Below, piece by piece: positions 4,573 to 26,032 of a DNA stretch of 33,172 nucleotides. Origin of the DNA: Candidatus Saccharimonadota bacterium. GTDB taxonomy: Bacteria; Patescibacteriota; Saccharimonadia; Saccharimonadales; Saccharimonadaceae. The notes below the pieces were generated by a model. It was given only the letters and a program-made list of their open reading frames with translations, made no database searches and was not told the DNA's origin. The stretch covers positions 1 through 33,172 of the forward strand of contig JAUMXR010000007.1 of NCBI GenBank assembly GCA_030528995.1. Direction: 5' to 3'. Numbering within the stretch: position 1 is the stretch's first letter; every line of letters starts with the position of its first letter. Both the position numbers and the translations under genes were made by a program.

Positions 4573-7500
4573 CTAAGTTTTTTTCTTCCATCTCCCCTGG
4601 TCATAAACATTACCAGAGTCATCGCGAAGCGTCCCATCGCTCATTCTTGTTAGCTTCATCGTGCTTTTGCCAGAAATATTCTCATATTCAGCGCGCTCAA
4701 TCCTCTCAGGGCGCAGAGAAGCAGACGTCTCCACCGGCGCATACTGCTGTCCACCACCTCGAAAATTCTGTACAACATTGACACTTTGTGGAGTAGCACT
4801 AGCCCAAGCCTCAACCATTTCCCCACTAACAGATGAGCCATCATCATTTCTAATTGTATTATTTGCTGCAACGCCTTTTTTCATCAATGCTTCAGCGTCA
4901 CTCTTGAAATTCTTGGCTGCATCACCAAGTGAAACCTTGCCCCCATCTGTAATTTTGGCTGCAGTCGCCGCTCCGCTCGCAAGTGCTCCAAACATAATCT
5001 TTTTATCTTCAGAAATATTCGGGTTCATTGCCATGACTCGTTGAGCCATAGTCGTAGAAATTTTACCCGCAGCAGCCATGCCTGCCAAACTATCCCCAGA
5101 CAGTTTGATTAGGTCCTCAGGCTTGTACTCATCTGGTTCAATCGGCTTGTTCATGGCATAATTGCCATAGTCACCCAGCGCTATGTCTTGACCAGTTACT
5201 TTATCTTTCCATCCACCAGACCGCATATAATGATTAAGTTCAAAGTCCGAAGCAAGGAAATCATTTCCATATGCTTTCGCAGTTTCTCGCATCCATTGAT
5301 CTTTCTGTTCCCTCGACATACCACCCATCAAACCTTGATTAATAGCGAACCTCACCACTTTGGCGATATCTTTATCCTTCAGATTAGATGATTTCATAGC
5401 CTGGATAGCGGCATTCATACCAGATGTGCTGCCCTTGCTTGCGCTTTCCAAGAATTGACGGTAATAATAATTTTGTTCATTAGTCGTGTCACCCAAATCG
5501 GCAAGAGACGACAATCCTTCAATCCCTGCCGTATCCAAAGTACTTGCAGCAGCTATTCCAGAAGCAGCCAGTGCGCCAGTCAACGCGGCATTAGCAGCCT
5601 CGGCTTCGCCAATGGTTTTCTTTGCCTGTTGCACTCGAGCCGCCTGACGCCTTGTAGCCGCCGAACCAAAGAATTTAGCGCGTTTCGCCTTTCGCTCGCC
5701 CCTGGCGGTCAATTGCCCTTCTCTATTAATACCGGCTCTTATTCGATTTCTTCGTTCCAAACCCATACTTTGTGCGTTCTTATACACCTCACTGCCCCTT
5801 GCCCTGCTAGTCGCACCCTTCCTCGCCCGGTCGCCCATACCAGTTAGCATTCCACCAACCTTACCCATAGCTGCAAACGAACCTTTCAGTACCGTTGGTA
5901 TAAAGAATATCGGCACAATCCCCACAATCATAGCCGTCAACGCTTTTAAGAAACCGCCACCTGCGAAATTCACCGACAAAAGCAAATTCGACACATAATT
6001 ACCACCGCCCACAAGCAAACCACAAATTGGGTACACTAATAATAATCCCTCAAAGAACTTCCACCATTTGTCGAACAGCTTCTTTGTATTCGGCAAAGCG
6101 TAGCACATCACAGCAAGCGGCGAAATCGCTACCAACACTACAATTGCTGCTTCGCGAATCGCCAACAAAACAAACAAGAAGAAAATCGAGATTGCCACGC
6201 CTAAAGCTGCCACCAAAATAGAGAGCACGATGGCCGGATTTCTCCATATGGTGCCAACCATTATTACCAATGCGCCCAATATCGCCACACCAGTCAACAC
6301 GGTCGACCCTATTGCCTCAGATTTTACTGTTGCCTCAGGTATTTCCAAAGTGGGGGTTAGTCCACTTCCTAGGCTATCAAACAATGCCCTCAATGCATTC
6401 CCCAAAATGTTCGACAAGTCCACAAAAACAATACATAGAATATACGATAGATTAATCAGAATCGCCACCACAATCAACTTAGGCAAAATTTTCTTAATCC
6501 CATAATTATCAATACCAACTCCAGTCAGCTGTGAGAAAATCACCACCAAAAACAGTATTATAAACGCGATATTCGCAATATTCCTAAACGTCTCCCAAGC
6601 AGTCCTCACCCCCTCATTCCCACCCGAAAACAACTGCGGCTCCACTCTCAACGACGGCTCAACAAAATCTTCATACGCGTCCTGTGCAGCTGTACCTAGC
6701 CACTCCATGATTGAACAAACAATCCAACCCAACTTCTGCGCCCCACCCGAATTCGCACAAGTCGGCTCCTCGGTATCACCCCCACCATCATCTTCTTCCT
6801 CCTCGTCTTTTGCAATATCCGAATATATATCCTCTGACAAACCATCATAAGACTTCTCATTACTCAACCAATCCAAAACACTTCCAAAAGTACCCATAGT
6901 CAATGATGAAGTTCCATTAATTGCCAGTGGCTCATTTAAGATTTCATCAGCTTCCCCCTCAATATTGATTTGACACCACACATCCGCTTTTGTTTTTAGT
7001 GCATATTTTGATTGGCCACGTTCACCGCAATCCTCAATTGTCATATTGGAATACTTCTCTAACATTTTTTGCAAATAACGATAATACAAAGAATATACAT
7101 AATCCGTATTCCAATAGTACAAATTTGACGTTTTCCCACCTTTTGTAGATGTAAGATGTGGGTAATCATCCGCATTTACGCCAACATTAATCAACATATC
7201 CGAAGCGGCAATACCTTTACTTCCACTCGGTAACACATATACAGCGTCACTGCTTTCCAAATCCTGTTGTGAAACATCAACATTACCTACAGACGTTACA
7301 GTAAAAACAACATAAGGATTAGGGAAATAATCCTCAAAATAAGTCCCAAATGCTTTTTTTAGTTCAGTAATTAAGCTAGAGTTGCTAACCGCCGATTCTA
7401 TATCGTCTTTTTTGCCAGCCATCTTCTCCTGAAAGGCGTTTGTGAGAGTATCGTTACCATTTATCCCGGCCCAAACTGATATTGAATACGTTCCAAAACC

Positions 7501-8280
7501 ATTTGAATCAATACACATCCTAGTATCTTCATCCCAGGTAGCACCTTCTGGACAAGAATCTTTATAGCCCATATCTCTGACTATCAATGGGCCGTTATCC
7601 CCACCATTTCTTCCAAACTCAAATCCAATTTTATGTTCTTTACCAGCATTATCAACATAAGAGGCTTCCATGGAACCTTTTTTGCCTACTATTCCAACTA
7701 CAGACCAACCACTATTTTCATACTGCATCTCCAATTCCAAATTTGAACTGACAGAAGGAGTTTTTGTGTTTGTTTGGCTATGATCCTTTATCGAATTCAA
7801 TTTAATCGTCACCTTTGTTGCTTCACCACTGGCGCCTCCACCTTCAACATGGTCAAAAGCATAACCCCACCCCTTCAACGTAGAGGGCAAACCATACAGC
7901 TCCCTCAAGCTACGCGCGAAATTCGTCTCACCACTCCCATTAAGCAATTGAGCACAATCCAAGTAACTTTTCTTACCGCTAAGGGAGTTTCCGATACTAG
8001 TAGTTAAAATGTTTTCACTATTCGTCCAATCAGAAGTTTTGAAAACAGTAGTTATACCGTATCCTTTCCCACCAGTACTGTAAAAAGATTGATCGAAAAC
8101 ACCTTTTTTAATCTCACTATTGGCATAAGTATCATAACAATCATACACACCTTGAAAAACAGACAGCGAATATAATTTATCGTCCGATATTACCTTTGCC
8201 GATACATTATCTACGCCAATAACCCCTACAACCAACATCCCGAAAGCTATAAACAGAATTTTAGCAAATAATCTACGCAT
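4573..8280 (-). CDS. Large polytopic VirB6/TrbL-like membrane protein
   Basis: A 1235-residue protein with an N-terminal signal peptide (cleavage near VSA-KV, residue 28). It has a long extracytoplasmic region with scattered cysteines to about residue 560, a block of hydrophobic segments at about 565-795, and then a long Ala/Lys/Arg-rich cytoplasmic tail. The segment with ISPLAVMCYALPNTKK and the following KWWKFFEGLLL is the kind seen in VirB6/TrbL-like proteins of CPR genomes, which suggests an inner-membrane channel part of a type IV secretion or DNA-transfer machine. Its ATG overlaps the stop of the upstream gene by 8 bp and the SD AGGAGC lies inside that gene, so translation is coupled. 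No VirB4-type ATPase is in the window, so the function is inferred from architecture only. Confidence 0.7.
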   Translation of the reverse strand: MRRLFAKILFIAFGMLVVGVIGVDNVSAKVISDDKLYSLSVFQGVYDCYDTYANSEIKKGVFDQSFYSTGGKGYGITTVFKTSDWTNSENILTTSIGNSLSGKKSYLDCAQLLNGSGETNFARSLRELYGLPSTLKGWGYAFDHVEGGGASGEATKVTIKLNSIKDHSQTNTKTPSVSSNLELEMQYENSGWSVVGIVGKKGSMEASYVDNAGKEHKIGFEFGRNGGDNGPLIVRDMGYKDSCPEGATWDEDTRMCIDSNGFGTYSISVWAGINGNDTLTNAFQEKMAGKKDDIESAVSNSSLITELKKAFGTYFEDYFPNPYVVFTVTSVGNVDVSQQDLESSDAVYVLPSGSKGIAASDMLINVGVNADDYPHLTSTKGGKTSNLYYWNTDYVYSLYYRYLQKMLEKYSNMTIEDCGERGQSKYALKTKADVWCQINIEGEADEILNEPLAINGTSSLTMGTFGSVLDWLSNEKSYDGLSEDIYSDIAKDEEEEDDGGGDTEEPTCANSGGAQKLGWIVCSIMEWLGTAAQDAYEDFVEPSLRVEPQLFSGGNEGVRTAWETFRNIANIAFIILFLVVIFSQLTGVGIDNYGIKKILPKLIVVAILINLSYILCIVFVDLSNILGNALRALFDSLGSGLTPTLEIPEATVKSEAIGSTVLTGVAILGALVIMVGTIWRNPAIVLSILVAALGVAISIFFLFVLLAIREAAIVVLVAISPLAVMCYALPNTKKLFDKWWKFFEGLLLVYPICGLLVGGGNYVSNLLLSVNFAGGGFLKALTAMIVGIVPIFFIPTVLKGSFAAMGKVGGMLTGMGDRARKGATSRARGSEVYKNAQSMGLERRNRIRAGINREGQLTARGERKAKRAKFFGSAATRRQAARVQQAKKTIGEAEAANAALTGALAASGIAAASTLDTAGIEGLSSLADLGDTTNEQNYYYRQFLESASKGSTSGMNAAIQAMKSSNLKDKDIAKVVRFAINQGLMGGMSREQKDQWMRETAKAYGNDFLASDFELNHYMRSGGWKDKVTGQDIALGDYGNYAMNKPIEPDEYKPEDLIKLSGDSLAGMAAAGKISTTMAQRVMAMNPNISEDKKIMFGALASGAATAAKITDGGKVSLGDAAKNFKSDAEALMKKGVAANNTIRNDDGSSVSGEMVEAWASATPQSVNVVQNFRGGGQQYAPVETSASLRPERIERAEYENISGKSTMKLTRMSDGTLRDDSGNVYDQGRWKKKT

Positions 8281-9502: not shown

Positions 9503-10762
9503 TTATTTAACAAATTTCTTGCGGCTAGCAACGAAATAACCAAGCGTGGTTACCACGGCACCTGCGCCCACAGCACCAGTCACAATCGTACCGGCACCAG
9601 TGTTGGGAAGCTCCTCGGGAGTTTCAGGAGTTGGCTCTGGGGTAGGTGTAGGAGTAGGGGTTGGCTTTTCATGACAACTCTCATCATCCTTCTTTACCAT
9701 CACCGAAGCGTCATCTTTGTAAACAGACTTTTTGACCGTAGCGCTTGCCCAGTTTACAAGCTGGTTAGAACCACAAGCCAAAGTCTTATCAACTACCTTA
9801 CCAGTAAAACGCACATAGGCATTACCCTTAGTAGAGTAACTACCAATGTTAATACCAGAAGTAGTGACAGTATTATCAGCTAGCTTCACGCCACTCTGAT
9901 AATTAGCATTGTAAAGATAAGTGGTGTCATTCACATACTCTACGTTAGTAGGAAGTACGTCACGAATCATCACATCATTTACGGTTTCAGCAAGCAAGTT
10001 TTTGTACTCAATTTGGTACTCAACTTCATCGCCAACCTTCGCATCAACAGCTTCAGACCAAGTCTTGGTACCCTTGATACGAACAGTCTTAGAAACCTTT
10101 GCAGCTACTGAGCTGTGAACCTTGACGTCAATAGTTACAACACCAGAGTATTCGTAACAGCCAGGGATTTCACCATTCATCGAAGTGTAACCAAGCGTTG
10201 CGCCTGAGATAATCACATCGTTTGAAAGTTTGAAAGTACCCTTGTTGTTGGTATACTTAGCCGAACCATCAACGTATTCAAGATAAACATCTTCGTCTGC
10301 ATTTAAGGTTACTTCATCCCAGTAACGCTTAGGAGTTGCATTTGAAGAATCAATGTAACCAATAATCGTTTGAGATTTAGCAACAGTTGTTGGAATTGAG
10401 AAAGTAGCTTTTACGCCCTTTGCAATCGCTTCCATGCCCTTTGGGCTGTTGTTGTGAACAAACAAACGAATCGTGTAAGTTTCGCCGTCTTTCACATTAA
10501 TCGTGTTAGCATTCCAAGTGCTGACCTCAGCGCCAGCAACCTTAGCGCCCACGAAATTCTTTTCATCACCGATTTTACCGTTAGAAATCGAGTTAAACGT
10601 AATGGTGTCCTTTAGTTCACCTTTGTTAATCTGTTCAAGTGTATAACTAGGACGACCATTGTCAGAGTCACCCCAAGCATTCACCATCACAGGAGCAAGC
10701 GTACCAGCCATCACAATCGCAGCAGCCGAAACGCTTAAAATAGATTTATAAATACTTTTCAT
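9503..10762 (-). CDS. LPxTG-type cell-surface protein with DUF11-like repeat
   Basis: A 419-residue secreted protein. The signal peptide is residues 1-29 (cleavage near VNA-WG). The body is beta-rich. Residues about 225-325 resemble the DUF11/conserved-repeat domain of adhesins, with the recognisable run GDEVEYQIEYKN and later IRDVLPTNVEY. A Thr-Pro/Glu-Pro linker leads to LPNTG (385-389), a hydrophobic segment and the basic tail RKKF, which is a classic sortase sorting signal. The SD AAGGAG lies 6 bases upstream. It sits between the paralogous envelope proteins and the VirB6-like operon, which fits a surface-attachment role. No sortase gene is in the window. Confidence 0.85.
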   Translation of the reverse strand: MKSIYKSILSVSAAAIVMAGTLAPVMVNAWGDSDNGRPSYTLEQINKGELKDTITFNSISNGKIGDEKNFVGAKVAGAEVSTWNANTINVKDGETYTIRLFVHNNSPKGMEAIAKGVKATFSIPTTVAKSQTIIGYIDSSNATPKRYWDEVTLNADEDVYLEYVDGSAKYTNNKGTFKLSNDVIISGATLGYTSMNGEIPGCYEYSGVVTIDVKVHSSVAAKVSKTVRIKGTKTWSEAVDAKVGDEVEYQIEYKNLLAETVNDVMIRDVLPTNVEYVNDTTYLYNANYQSGVKLADNTVTTSGINIGSYSTKGNAYVRFTGKVVDKTLACGSNQLVNWASATVKKSVYKDDASVMVKKDDESCHEKPTPTPTPTPEPTPETPEELPNTGAGTIVTGAVGAGAVVTTLGYFVASRKKFVK

Positions 10763-10959: not shown

Positions 10960-12687
10960 TCAATCCGGCGGGCCTCCCCATTCGCCCGCTGGCTCAGTCG
11001 TTATTTCCTTGCCAGTATCAGCCGCAACGGCTGGCTCCTTAATCGGAGTCACCTCATTTATCGGCTTACTATCTGGCCCGTTGCCCGTATCGCCATTATT
11101 GTCGACATGGACTGGCGTCGTCGGCTGCGTCGGGTCAGTATTCTCAATTACTGGCGTGTATGACGGCTTATTGTCGTCATTGCCGGTTTTCTGAGTCTCA
11201 TTGATAGACTCCAGCTCTTTCATGTCCTCTACGTAATCATCATACGATTCGTAGTGACTCGAATTCTCCGGTTGGTCTTTCGAGGACTCAGTCGAATCCT
11301 TACCGGTGTTAGTGTCTTCACCCGGCCCAGGGTCATCATTCGGCTCTATATATTCATATGTCGCCTTCTCCGGGTCCTTGTTGTAGGTTGTTGTCTCCGG
11401 TTCCGGCGTCGGTCTCGGCTGCGGAGTAATATGCATTATCTCCTCCACATCCGTTGGCTGATAACCACAGTTGATTCTATACGCCACCTCAAAAAAGTTA
11501 TCTTTGATTTTGAACGTATAGACCAACTCATACCCACTATGGTCATCAGTCAGCATCACAATGATGTCAGGGACACCATCGATAGTAAATGGATTCATGT
11601 ACATCTGGTCGGACACCGTCCAACATTCCCTTACTTCAACTTTTACAGCTGAATCGAGGAACGCGAAGAAAGCGTCCAGATGCTGGTAGAACACCAACTG
11701 GTCGTCCATAAACTTTTCTTTCGTCAAGTTCATGGTTTTCGCCCAGTCATGTTTGCATGACTCGTAGAACTCGCCCAGATAGCGAGTGCCGACATTGGCA
11801 TCAAGCCATGCCATATCGGCCGCCGCAAGCGCGGGGTCGACTTTTAATCTTGCCCTAAACTCCTCGTCATAATATGACGCTTCCATATGCTCCCAATCTA
11901 ACGGATTCCAACCGAAATTGTAATCGTTGTCTGGGTCCACATCATTAAGAAGCGACAGGTTAAAAAATGCGTACCAAGGTCCCAAAGTAGGAGCCGCTTG
12001 CGGCACCGTCTCATCTTCAATCACCACTTCTCCCGATTGGACGGTAGAGCTTCTTGGCTGATTATTAAAACCAGGCCAATAAACCCTGTTTACCAACAGC
12101 AGTACAATCATCACAATTGCCGCTACAACCGACAATATGGCTCCAAGCCCATAAAGAACTTTAGAGTTATTGTCTAACTTTTCCGGGTTCCTCAAGTGCA
12201 ATCCTCTGTAGTGATAAACGAAGAAGCTTATCAACACAATTGCCCCACATATAGCCAGTAATAGTAGCGGTAATACCTCTACTAAAGTAAGCCAGCCATA
12301 GTTGGCAATCTCGATGTATTTTGCCACATGACAACCCGTAACGGTCACAACGGCAAAAATACCTGCGGTGACGAGAATCTCGTACCATCTTGATGCCTCG
12401 TTCACTGCCCGCCAAGTACCGTAGACCATTGCAACTACAACGCCCAGCATGGCGATAGAAGCAGTTTCGAGGCTTACTGGCGCAAAACAGTACGCTAAAC
12501 CTACAAGTAGGCCAAAAACAACTGCTTGCAGCCATCCACTAGCGCTAATCCTTCCTTCATACTTTACGAATCCACCACGTGTTCTCACCCGCGTGAACCC
12601 GCCATTAAGCAGGAAATCCTGGAACACTACCAACGCCGCCATTGCGACGGCCAATATTATACCCACAACTACAACTTGCGTAGTCAT
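10960..12687 (-). CDS. 6-TM membrane protein with extracytoplasmic domain and Pro/Thr tail (paralog 1)
   Basis: A 575-residue protein of no recognised family. Six TM helices lie at about 5-22, 54-70, 75-92, 105-122, 132-157 and 180-200. They are followed by a soluble domain (about 240-430) with WYAFFN near its start, DQMYMNPF in the middle and RINCGY near its end. A long Pro/Thr/Glu/Asp-rich tail ends in PAGEWGGPPD. The next gene upstream is a clear paralog with the same layout and tail motif, so this locus is a tandem duplication. Here the TM and soluble parts are in one frame (the junction reads CCT GGT TTT AAT). A strong SD (AAGGAGG) precedes the ATG and a consensus promoter lies about 165 bases upstream. 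The role is unknown; the context suggests the cell envelope. Confidence 0.85.
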   Translation of the reverse strand: MTTQVVVVGIILAVAMAALVVFQDFLLNGGFTRVRTRGGFVKYEGRISASGWLQAVVFGLLVGLAYCFAPVSLETASIAMLGVVVAMVYGTWRAVNEASRWYEILVTAGIFAVVTVTGCHVAKYIEIANYGWLTLVEVLPLLLLAICGAIVLISFFVYHYRGLHLRNPEKLDNNSKVLYGLGAILSVVAAIVMIVLLLVNRVYWPGFNNQPRSSTVQSGEVVIEDETVPQAAPTLGPWYAFFNLSLLNDVDPDNDYNFGWNPLDWEHMEASYYDEEFRARLKVDPALAAADMAWLDANVGTRYLGEFYESCKHDWAKTMNLTKEKFMDDQLVFYQHLDAFFAFLDSAVKVEVRECWTVSDQMYMNPFTIDGVPDIIVMLTDDHSGYELVYTFKIKDNFFEVAYRINCGYQPTDVEEIMHITPQPRPTPEPETTTYNKDPEKATYEYIEPNDDPGPGEDTNTGKDSTESSKDQPENSSHYESYDDYVEDMKELESINETQKTGNDDNKPSYTPVIENTDPTQPTTPVHVDNNGDTGNGPDSKPINEVTPIKEPAVAADTGKEITTEPAGEWGGPPD

Positions 12688-12851
12688 AGCTTTTCACCTC
12701 CTTCTATCACTTGTCGGAGGTCCCACCCCCGAACTAAACTAAAAGTAAACTTGGGGAATGATAGATAGCTCAGATCTCATTTGAAATCTGAGATGATTTG
12801 GTTGTTAATGGTCTTCGTCGTTCAAAAACTCCCTAAACTCAGACTGATTAC

Positions 12852-13018: not shown

Positions 13019-13981
13019 TTAATCTAGCGGGCCTCCCCATTCACCCGCGGGATTATTACTCAAATCGTCCATCTGAGCCCTGTATTCATCATAAGATGAA
13101 TAATTGCCGCTATTCTGCGACTGCTCATAGGATGATTTATCATTATTTGGTTCCACATTCTCATAAGAAGCCGCCTCCGGCTCCTTCTCTGGAGCTTGAG
13201 TGGTTGTTTCAGGTTCCTTCGTTGTCGTCTCCGGCTCCTTTGTTGTAGGTTCCGTAGTTGTCTCTGGCGTCGGAGTTGTCTCTGGCACCGTCGTCGGCTG
13301 TGGTACCGGATTAACCTGCGGCGTGGTTTTCATCACATCCGCGATATTAACCGGCGGATAACCGCAGTTAATCCTAAGCACCACCTCACGGGGCTGCGCA
13401 TTTGTGTAAAAAGTATACACAAGACACCACCCCTCGCCATCACCGGAGTCCATCACTATAACATCAGGCACCCCAGTGGACGTAAACGGATTCATGTAAA
13501 GCTGGTCATGAATTCCGTGTCTATACTGCACATCCCGATTCCCCGAATTCAAGAATTCGAAAAACTTATCGAGATTTGTGAGATAAGTCGTCTTATCCAT
13601 CTCCATAAATCTAGTTTTCGCCAGGTTTATAGCATTCAACCAGTTGCCCCCACTCTTATCATAATCGTCACCAATAAACCTGGTACCAATCAGAGCATCT
13701 ACGGCACCCATTTCAGCAGCCGCAAGAGCAGGGTCTATCATCATACGATTTTTTACATCGTTATGATAGTACTCCACCTCTCGGTATTCATTGACTAGGT
13801 TCGGATTATAACCGAAATAGTAGTCATTAGTCGCATCATTATCCCTAAGTAAGCTGGGATTATAGAATGCATACCAAACCTCTGGTTTTTCGGTCGGTTT
13901 TTCCGTGACAGGTTCTGCCGCCTCCGTAGTCTGAACTTCAGACTGATTACTCGGAGACGGCTGGGTCAGAAACCCTGCCAC
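13019..13981 (-). CDS. C-terminal part of paralog 2, probably expressed by -1 frameshift
   Basis: A 320-codon frame matching the soluble domain and tail of the 575-residue paralog: WYAFYNPSLL, DQLYMNPF, RINCGY and a final PAGEWGGPLD all align. It has no TM segment or signal of its own. The only start at its 5' end is GTG at 13981, without a Shine-Dalgarno, inside the end of the upstream frame (16-bp overlap). Taken together with the preceding frame it rebuilds a full paralog of 532 residues if ribosomes slip -1 on the G_GGT_TTC heptamer at 13969-13975, joining the chain after Phe216 to Leu-Thr-Gln. Alternatives are a simple frameshift mutation, a sequencing error, or reinitiation at the GTG. 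The slippery heptamer plus stem-loop make recoding the best reading. Confidence 0.8.
   Translation of the reverse strand: MAGFLTQPSPSNQSEVQTTEAAEPVTEKPTEKPEVWYAFYNPSLLRDNDATNDYYFGYNPNLVNEYREVEYYHNDVKNRMMIDPALAAAEMGAVDALIGTRFIGDDYDKSGGNWLNAINLAKTRFMEMDKTTYLTNLDKFFEFLNSGNRDVQYRHGIHDQLYMNPFTSTGVPDVIVMDSGDGEGWCLVYTFYTNAQPREVVLRINCGYPPVNIADVMKTTPQVNPVPQPTTVPETTPTPETTTEPTTKEPETTTKEPETTTQAPEKEPEAASYENVEPNNDKSSYEQSQNSGNYSSYDEYRAQMDDLSNNPAGEWGGPLD
13918..13975 (-). promoter_or_regulatory. Programmed -1 ribosomal frameshift signal (candidate)
   Basis: On the minus strand the zero frame reads CAG GGT TTC TGA. The heptamer G_GGT_TTC (13969-13975) fits the X_XXY_YYZ rule and is followed directly by the zero-frame stop. 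After an 8-base spacer comes a stem-loop: outer 9-bp stem CCGTCTCCG (13952-13960) with CGGAGGCGG (13918-13926, one G-U pair), enclosing an inner 7-bp hairpin AGTCTGA/TCAGACT (13928-13944). Spacing and order match bacterial and viral -1 frameshift sites. The seamless alignment of the joined product to the single-frame paralog supports it. Confidence 0.72.
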
Positions 13982-14616
13982 TTCACGCCAGTCACCAGCA
14001 GGTAAATCGCAATTCCTAGCCCAACAACGACCGTTACTACCGCTAGGAGCGACAACAGCTTACGCTTGTCTTTGTCTAAGCCATGGGGGTTGCTGTCAGC
14101 GTGATATCTCAACACTGCAGCGATAATCAGCGCGACACAGATAGCTAACGCTACCCCTGGAATTGTCATCAAAACCGACAACCAGGCGTAAGACCGCATC
14201 ATGCCGCCCATAGCGATAGCACCCATCTTTGCTACAATCCGTGCTACTATCAGCATTATGATAAACACTATCACTTCTTTCGGCGATGAAGCCTCATTGA
14301 TGCTCCAGTAGGCAATATAAACCATTACCACTATCATAACTATGAGACTAAACATGCCAAGTAGTGGCTTAGCTACCGCAATCGAGGCAAAAAAGCCCAC
14401 TACAGCTGCCAATATTAAAGCACGACCCCAGCCTGTGGCATCTACTCCTCCCTTAATCTTAAGCCTAAAAGACCCATCTTCATCTTTATCGAAGATATGG
14501 CCATCGTTCAAGAAGAACGATTCAATCAGACACAGCACCAACATTATGATGCCAAAAAGTAATAAAAAACCAAATTTCATATCGATACCTCCTTCAAGTA
14601 TCTTCTCGGAGGCCAC
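13966..14616 (-). CDS. 6-TM membrane protein, zero-frame product of paralog 2
   Basis: A 216-residue protein with six hydrophobic segments laid out like residues 1-206 of the 575-residue paralog. It ends KWQGF where the paralog reads VYWPGF and continues into its soluble domain. Termination at TGA (13966-13968) would leave only the membrane part. A -1 slip just before it would add the 316-residue extracytoplasmic part. So two products are likely, a bare membrane core and a tailed form. The SD GAAGGAGG precedes the ATG, with a consensus promoter and a leader of about 140 bases upstream. The family is not recognised. Confidence 0.83.
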   Translation of the reverse strand: MASEKILEGGIDMKFGFLLLFGIIMLVLCLIESFFLNDGHIFDKDEDGSFRLKIKGGVDATGWGRALILAAVVGFFASIAVAKPLLGMFSLIVMIVVMVYIAYWSINEASSPKEVIVFIIMLIVARIVAKMGAIAMGGMMRSYAWLSVLMTIPGVALAICVALIIAAVLRYHADSNPHGLDKDKRKLLSLLAVVTVVVGLGIAIYLLVTGVKWQGF

Positions 14617-14758
14617 GCCCCCGCACTAGTCAATAAGAACAATTGGGGACTTTTTAGATAGCATCAGATTCCATTTGAAATCTGAGATGATTTGATTACT
14701 TCGCAAATTGTTAAAACACCGCCTCGTTCCCTGTTAATCCAGAACTCTGCATGCTATA

Positions 14759-14888: not shown

Positions 14889-15449
14889 TTACAATTTCCT
14901 ATAACGATATGACTCATCTGCTGTCAGTGGTCTGATCAGCAGGCCGTCTTTGTCCGCCCATGCGTAAACGCACACAGCGGTATGCACTACTCCAGGTTCT
15001 TCGGTATTGGCGATACAAATTGCGTCCGCCTCATAATACCGCAGAATTTCTACTCCGGTACCCAGCCTGATATGATAGGCTTTCACAACGTGATGGGGCA
15101 CCGGTGCCTTCGGGTATACCTTATCGTAGTCACTAAGGACTTCGATAGGCGCAGAAGCAGAAGCTCCAACAGCGGCAACGACAGGCGCAGAAGCAGAAGC
15201 TTCCAGCTTAGCAATTCTACCTTCATGATTGCTAAGCGTCTCATCGTGCTCTCCGAGCTTCTTATCGTGCTCATGCAGCTTATCCTGCACTTTTTTGAGC
15301 TCCTTCGGATCAATTTCCGAAAGTTCTTTGGAGCTCTCTTTGAGCTTTTCAAGAACCTCCGTCAACGGGTCCTTCTTAGGGGTGTCTGCCACCTTAGGTT
15401 CAGGTTTGTCAGTTGCGGTTCTTTTTAATTCATCTATTTTTTTACTCAT
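14889..15449 (-). CDS. Coiled-coil protein of unknown function
   Basis: A 186-residue soluble protein. Residues 1-35 are Lys/Pro-rich. About 35-90 is a highly charged heptad-repeat coiled coil. A linker with two copies of ASASAP follows. The C-terminal 75 residues form a compact domain with many aromatic residues and no recognised family. There is no signal peptide or TM segment. The SD AAGGAGG and a TTGACA-N17-TATAAT promoter precede it. Sharing the promoter type and neighbourhood with the paralogous membrane proteins suggests a partner or a co-regulated gene, but this is inference. Confidence 0.8.
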   Translation of the reverse strand: MSKKIDELKRTATDKPEPKVADTPKKDPLTEVLEKLKESSKELSEIDPKELKKVQDKLHEHDKKLGEHDETLSNHEGRIAKLEASASAPVVAAVGASASAPIEVLSDYDKVYPKAPVPHHVVKAYHIRLGTGVEILRYYEADAICIANTEEPGVVHTAVCVYAWADKDGLLIRPLTADESYRYRKL

Positions 15450-24849: not shown

Positions 24850-25524
24850 CTATTCTGCGCCTTCACCAGCTTCTTCAGGCTTGCTACCGTTGTCAGCAGG
24901 CACATCTGCGGCTTCCATTTCAGGTTCCTCTGCTTCAGCTTCACGCTTTTCGGCTTCTGCCGCTGGATCATAAAGCGATGCCACCACCTGTTCGGGGTCA
25001 AGCTCTTTGTCAGCCAAAACTACGCCCTCAGGCAACTTAATGTCGGCAATTGTCAACTTATCATCAACATCCTTCATTTTAGATGCATCAATTTCGAGTT
25101 CCTTTGGCAAATCGGCCGGCTTCGCTTTTACGTCCAATTCTTCGATCGATTGCGTCATCGCGAAATGATAAATCTTTGAAGCTTCAGACTCTTCAAAACC
25201 TACAATCACCACTGGAGTAGTCGCTTCCACCACTTCCTTTGCCGAAATCGCTTGGAATTCAATATTGATAATTTTACGCGACACTGGGTCAATATGGACA
25301 TCCTTCACAATCGCCAAATGCTTCTTCCCAGCCATATCAAGATCGATTGGTGAGTGATAGCCAGCCCCATTCAAGACCTTCTCAGTCGCCACGTACTCAG
25401 ATGCCAACAAAATAGGCTCTTTACCACCATAAACCACTGATGGAATTTTCCCTTCGGCCCGTAAACTTTTTAATTTTTTGCCTGTAATCTCACGCTTCTC
25501 AAGCGTTAATTTATATTCAGCCAT
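24850..25524 (-). CDS. rplY: Ribosomal protein bL25 (CTC/TL5 form)
   Basis: A 224-residue 5S rRNA-binding ribosomal protein. The N-terminal bL25 domain (about 4-92) has the typical opening in which KREITGKK is followed by LRAEGKIPSVVYG. The second, TL5/CTC-type beta domain covers about 98-180. The last 30 residues are an acidic Glu/Ala tail. Length fits the long two-domain form. The ATG is preceded by AAGGAA and by a TTGATT-N17-TATAAT promoter that overlaps the end of grpE, so it is transcribed alone or in addition to read-through from the heat-shock operon. Confidence 0.95.
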   Translation of the reverse strand: MAEYKLTLEKREITGKKLKSLRAEGKIPSVVYGGKEPILLASEYVATEKVLNGAGYHSPIDLDMAGKKHLAIVKDVHIDPVSRKIINIEFQAISAKEVVEATTPVVIVGFEESEASKIYHFAMTQSIEELDVKAKPADLPKELEIDASKMKDVDDKLTIADIKLPEGVVLADKELDPEQVVASLYDPAAEAEKREAEAEEPEMEAADVPADNGSKPEEAGEGAE

Positions 25525-25548
25525 AATAATTCCTTTTAACTTCTCTTT

Positions 25549-25577
25549 ATTATATCACTTATCTGTTAATTAATCAA
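25549..25577 (-). promoter_or_regulatory. Promoter of rplY
   Basis: TTGATT (25572-25577), 17-base spacer ending in TGA, TATAAT (25549-25554) on the minus strand. The -35 overlaps the grpE stop codon. Confidence 0.75.
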
Positions 25578-26032
25578 ATCTTCTTAACTTTCACCATTGC
25601 CGGACGTAGCACCTCCCCTTCGTAATAGTATCCTGGCCTCAGCACTTCGCCAATCACCTCCTTCTCGCCATCACCTTCTGCCATCACTGCCTCGTGCAAA
25701 TCAGGATTGAATTCCACACCCTCACCCGCTTCAATCTTCGCAAGCGTCAGCTCCTTTAGCGTCTTATTCAGCGACCCCTCAAGTGGTTTCAACTCGGCAT
25801 ACGATGCAATTGCCCTATCTAAATCATCAAGCAAAGGCAACATCTTATAAACTGTAGCTAAACGTACCGCTTTTCGCTCATTCTCTTTTTGGAGCTCAAC
25901 CTGCTTCCGATAATTTTCAAAATCCGCCCGCGTCCTCTGTACATCACCAGTCAATTCCGCAATCTTTGCTTCTAGCTCCGCGTATCGTTCTTCCCCCTCC
26001 ACATCCCCCTTGTCTTTTACTTCCTTTTTCAT
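25574..26032 (-). CDS. grpE: Nucleotide exchange factor GrpE
   Basis: A 152-residue GrpE that releases ADP from DnaK. A short N-terminal charged coiled coil (about 1-55, containing [12 protein letters not shown]) is followed by the helical region [10 protein letters not shown] and the C-terminal beta domain with FNPDLHEAV and a final [13 protein letters not shown]. It is shorter than E. coli GrpE (197) through loss of the N-terminal extension. The ATG overlaps the hrcA stop (ATGA), so the two are coupled. dnaK and dnaJ are not adjacent. Confidence 0.95.

Follow-up and report, generated by a model that had tools for sequence, protein, structure and literature searches.

Copy A of a tandemly duplicated, genus-restricted envelope protein gene in one gut genome of Saccharibacteria may be decoded by programmed -1 ribosomal frameshifting, such that one message would yield both a tail-less membrane core and a tailed protein; we put this forward tentatively, as a possible intermediate between the fused and tail-less forms of the gene. 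A lineage-specific -1 frameshift seems to us slightly likelier than a recent deletion that cost the gene its tail, and the weights we attach to these and to two lesser explanations are judgements, not computed posteriors. Members of the family consist of a membrane core of about six helices and an exported soluble domain. In the window (the whole 33,172 nt stretch of DNA analysed here), copy B carries both parts in one frame, with CCT GGT TTT AAT at the junction position, as the first-pass annotation had described for this paralog. In copy A the 0 frame stops just past the last membrane helix, and the soluble domain follows in the -1 frame, where it has neither a start site nor a membrane anchor of its own. 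The features are listed by window position.

10960..12687 (-), copy B, paralog of 575 aa whose core and soluble domain share a single frame
13966..14580 (-), 0-frame membrane core of copy A, 204 aa plus stop, ending VKWQGF, orthologous to the tail-less proteins of G195 and G188
13975-13969 (-), slippery heptamer G_GGT_TTC (GGGTTTC), in 0-frame phase
13968-13966 (-), 0-frame stop TGA, abutting the heptamer
13968-13961 (-), spacer between heptamer and hairpin, TGACCCAG, 8 nt
13960-13918 (-), two-part hairpin of 43 nt (outer stem 9 bp, inner stem 7 bp), 8 nt downstream of the heptamer
13960-13952 / 13926-13918 (-), outer stem CCGTCTCCG / CGGAGGCGG, 9 bp including one U-G pair
13944-13938 / 13934-13928 (-), inner stem AGTCTGA / TCAGACT, 7 bp
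13906..13983 (-), longer imperfect palindrome from folding, slip site included
within 13900-14000 (-), frame-break sequence as given in the assembly, GGGTTTCTGACC
13019..13969 (-), -1 frame of 316 aa and a stop, encoding the linker, the soluble domain and a C-terminal tail, ending PAGEWGGPLD
13979..13981 (-), possible GTG start in the -1 frame, with no membrane segment after it
14581..14680 (-), conserved leader 5′ of copy A, containing a 9-bp hairpin and the ribosome-binding site GAAGGAGGT

The frame break was confirmed in the window sequence, the 0 frame of copy A ending ACT GGC GTG AAG TGG CAG GGT TTC TGA. The likely start of the core is ATG 14580, with GAAGGAGGT as the Shine-Dalgarno sequence upstream, which gives a core of 204 aa and a shifted product of 520 aa; the 216 and 532 residues of the first-pass annotation had been counted from an upstream GTG. 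After a -1 slip, reading continues from CTG ACC CAG and stays open for 316 codons, the length originally reported for this frame. With the slip, reading returns to the register of the paralog and no gap is left (VKWQGF followed by LTQPSPSNQSEV, against VYWPGF followed by NNQPRSSTVQSGEV in the paralog), the switch being placed at the heptamer codons by homology, and the junction peptide of the predicted shifted product spans WQGFLTQPSPSNQ.

The heptamer abutting the stop, the 8-base spacer and the two-part stem-loop noticed at first reading are all present on the minus strand, and both stems hold, but the structure extends further than had been thought. The fold of 91 nt around the junction has a free energy of -39.1 kcal/mol (z -3.5; 0 of 200 shuffles were equally stable) and includes an extra outer stem, formed by 13906-13917 and the bases surrounding the heptamer, which places the slip site itself inside the long imperfect palindrome. 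Searched for as a dispersed repeat, the junction hairpin was found in one copy only in the genome, and a search of Rfam returned no relevant match. The only Shine-Dalgarno-like element upstream is GGTGA, which ends 16 nt before the heptamer; stimulators of this type are frequent at bacterial -1 frameshift sites, but are not required.

The background for these features came from the same assembly: 198 conserved genes, 242 kb in all, which were set against G195. In-frame X_XXY_YYZ heptamers occurred in these genes at 0.0048 per codon and stood immediately before the stop in three of the 198. The stability of the 60-mer downstream of the junction (-26.2) was matched by 9 of 7,673 coding 60-mers and at none of 369 other heptamer sites, and the score of the hairpin at 5-9 nt spacing (-26.4) was equalled at none of 5,995 coding positions. 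When one-base deletions were simulated in this genome, the overlap contained a heptamer in 12% of cases; in 0.8% a heptamer touched the stop, and 0.2% had both a heptamer and a moderate hairpin (at most -14 kcal/mol). The anatomy of the junction fits a -1 frameshift signal, and its origin by chance at a random deletion is unlikely. Two observations temper these figures: 6 of 36 unbroken homologous genes have an equally or more stable 60-mer somewhere in the same linker, hence strong linker hairpins are not rare, and a palindrome is an indel hot spot, so the hairpin and the frame break need not be independent.

The junction resembles bacterial -1 programmed frameshifting in dnaX and in IS1/IS3-family elements in having an in-phase X_XXY_YYZ heptamer, a nearby 0-frame stop, a stable hairpin 8 nt downstream and a longer product in the -1 frame. 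It differs from them in lacking a clear upstream Shine-Dalgarno stimulator, in lying in a membrane protein gene, in that the site is not conserved, and in its heptamer, G_GGT_TTC, where bacterial ones are usually A-rich (PMC4066793). In E. coli, R_RR.U_UU.Y heptamers are shiftier than the general rule predicts, and G_GG.U_UU.Y falls outside the most efficient set; the background level of shifting in that study is 0.04-0.07% (PMC4066793). If copy A is recoded, most ribosomes would halt at the TGA and release the 204-aa core. A minority, delayed by the 43-nt hairpin, would move back by one base on G_GGT_TTC (GGT TTC to GGG TTT), and their product would be a tailed protein of 520 aa that corresponds to the fused form of the ancestor. 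The gene would then represent a lineage-specific state, intermediate between fused ancestor and tail-less relatives, in which little of the tail is made. Our literature search found no paper naming ribosomal frameshifting together with Saccharibacteria.

The sequence beyond the break is open but relaxed. There is no stop in 320 codons of tail, an outcome that has a probability of about 0.03 under neutral drift at 0.1 substitutions per site and becomes unlikely once drift exceeds some 0.05-0.1 substitutions per site; the tail must therefore have been translated until recently, or is translated still, under weak constraint. The sequence past the frame break has not decayed, though constraint has loosened: the tail shows 44-49% identity to members of the family in a small alignment and keeps the family C-terminus PAGEWGGPxD, but two conserved stretches have been lost in frame and 41 of 55 near-invariant residues remain, the lowest share among 33 sequences. 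Measured from the duplication node, the tail branch is 1.09 in copy A and 0.42 in copy B (2.6× faster in A), whilst the cores are about equally long (1.29 in A, 1.41 in B), as expected for a tail made in small amounts. Low-level -1 frameshifting explains the signal, the open tail and the faster evolution of the tail together. The tail of the fused copy B in G188 is likewise fast (2.19), however, so fast evolution requires no shift. AlphaFold predicted a confident alpha+beta structure for the soluble domain of copy A (pLDDT 93, from an alignment of relatives as input); searches of the PDB by sequence and by fold gave no credible match, and Pfam had nothing above the curated cut-off for core, soluble domain or paralog.

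The orthologues of copy A bear on both leading explanations. In a tree of the cores, copy A of the window groups with stand-alone proteins of G195 and G188 (support 98/94), and copy B with fused proteins of the same two (95/80), all six being held together at 96/95. The stand-alone orthologues (204 aa in G195, 188 aa in G188) end directly after the last helix, precisely where the frame of copy A breaks, and no soluble domain was found downstream of either. The 0-frame product of copy A therefore equals a conserved tail-less protein, and the tail-less core proposed in the first-pass annotation is supported as a product, at 204 instead of 216 aa. Tail-less orthologues also mean that the tail is dispensable, so that a plain tail-losing deletion fits equally.

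Such a deletion is the strongest rival and, although less probable in our judgement than frameshifting, a serious one. A recent and real loss of one base past the last membrane helix would have made a fused gene tail-less and left the -1 frame as a fresh relic; slipping would be incidental, and loss of the tail from copy A would be under way in three lineages in parallel. This accounts at once for the shared end point without a tail downstream in G195 and G188, for the parallel loss and for the missing conservation of the site, and it agrees with a tail already relaxed, by near-invariant residues and by rate, before the break. Palindromes are also reported to promote such mutations (a lead from the literature), and in a large survey homology-validated singleton frame breaks were mostly errors or indels (PMC3711429). 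Like those singletons and young pseudogenes, copy A is broken in a single genome, has intact fused homologues and is under partly relaxed constraint; unlike them, it has frameshift signals, a stop-free tail and a 0-frame product equal to a conserved tail-less orthologue. Against a deletion, the heptamer and a hairpin at the right spacing would be there by chance, and the event would have to be very recent, because the tail is still free of stops over 320 codons.

Conservation of the site, the check proposed in the first-pass annotation, is the decisive prediction, and it went against the claim. Homologues were found in 68 of 174 genomes of the window's genus, and a core search of 150 relatives in 55 genera confined them to that genus; named records are from Saccharibacteria metagenome-assembled genomes, many from the guts of sheep, goat, deer, yak and buffalo. 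The combination of heptamer, stop and hairpin occurred in none of the homologues in the 68 genomes, the closest relative compared having a core only 33% identical, and this distance limits the power of the test. No close orthologue with a tail was found in genome contigs, viral contigs or the 174 genomes of the genus. As no relative has the site, a recent mutation removing the outer domain may be the true account instead, and the frameshift interpretation as first proposed is partly supported overall.

Most homologues are single open-reading frames of about 530-730 aa. About 12 genomes (G007, G176, G206, G069 and others) have a two-gene form, which resembles copy A in that core and soluble domain occupy separate frames, but splits elsewhere: the cut falls before the last helix, and in all 12 clear cases (those with the membrane ORF immediately upstream) the second gene begins with ATG, mostly preceded by a good Shine-Dalgarno sequence, and has its own membrane anchor. 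The window is the sole case cut after the last helix with a second part that has no start or anchor. Fused, two-gene and core-only forms all occur within the one genus (L053, L054, L057, L070, L088, L089 and others), forming a small natural series of gene fission.

An assembly or sequencing error, in which a base went missing near the palindrome and split what is really a single fused open-reading frame of about 521 codons, is unlikely. It would suit a break seen in one genome only, in a family where nearly all homologues are single open-reading frames and at a palindrome, which is hard to sequence, but the 198 conserved genes contain no other frame break in the comparison with G195, and an error would have fallen exactly at the end point of both orthologues only through chance. 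One other frame change was flagged in that comparison, at 25436-25787 (+) of the window; it lies opposite minus-strand open-reading frames and was discarded as a shadow ORF. Very improbable is reinitiation, whereby ribosomes finishing the core would begin anew at GTG 13981 and give a soluble protein of 320 aa on its own: this GTG and the stop region overlap, there is a GGTGA 10 nt upstream and two-gene forms are known, yet those have an ATG and an anchor in the second gene in 12 of 12 cases, and a product lacking a membrane segment would remain cytoplasmic. Reassignment of TGA is no help, since the continuation sits in a different frame, and transcript slippage is unlikely, as no run exceeds three bases.

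If -1 frameshifting does operate in copy A, it would be a chromosomal, non-transposon case in a bacterial lineage that is reduced and dependent on a host; it would control how much anchored core is made relative to the exported domain of a surface protein, and recoding would be a step in gene fission. If it does not, then in three lineages a duplicated surface protein is shedding its outer domain at the same point.

The leader of copy A belongs to a conserved element of about 100-125 nt that precedes genes of this envelope family, being found also before copy B (12688-12802, -), in L094 (1415-1535 and 2362-2481) and in L095, G036, G037, G089, G165, G221, G003 and G215. Its motif CAAATCATCTCAGATTTCAAATGARATCTGA forms the 9-bp hairpin, in which all changes at eight of nine pairs preserve pairing via G-U, and the following GGGGG...CCTCC could pair with the ribosome-binding site GGAGG. 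Rfam contained no match to the leader, which is possibly an undescribed cis-regulatory RNA. In the same strand block as copies A and B are a 1235-aa protein (4573-8280, -), with a TrbL/VirB6-like match below threshold, and a DUF11/LPXTG-anchor surface protein (9503-10762). A 186-aa coiled-coil protein (14889-15449, -) is encoded upstream of copy A, and similar small genes lie upstream of the core in other genomes.
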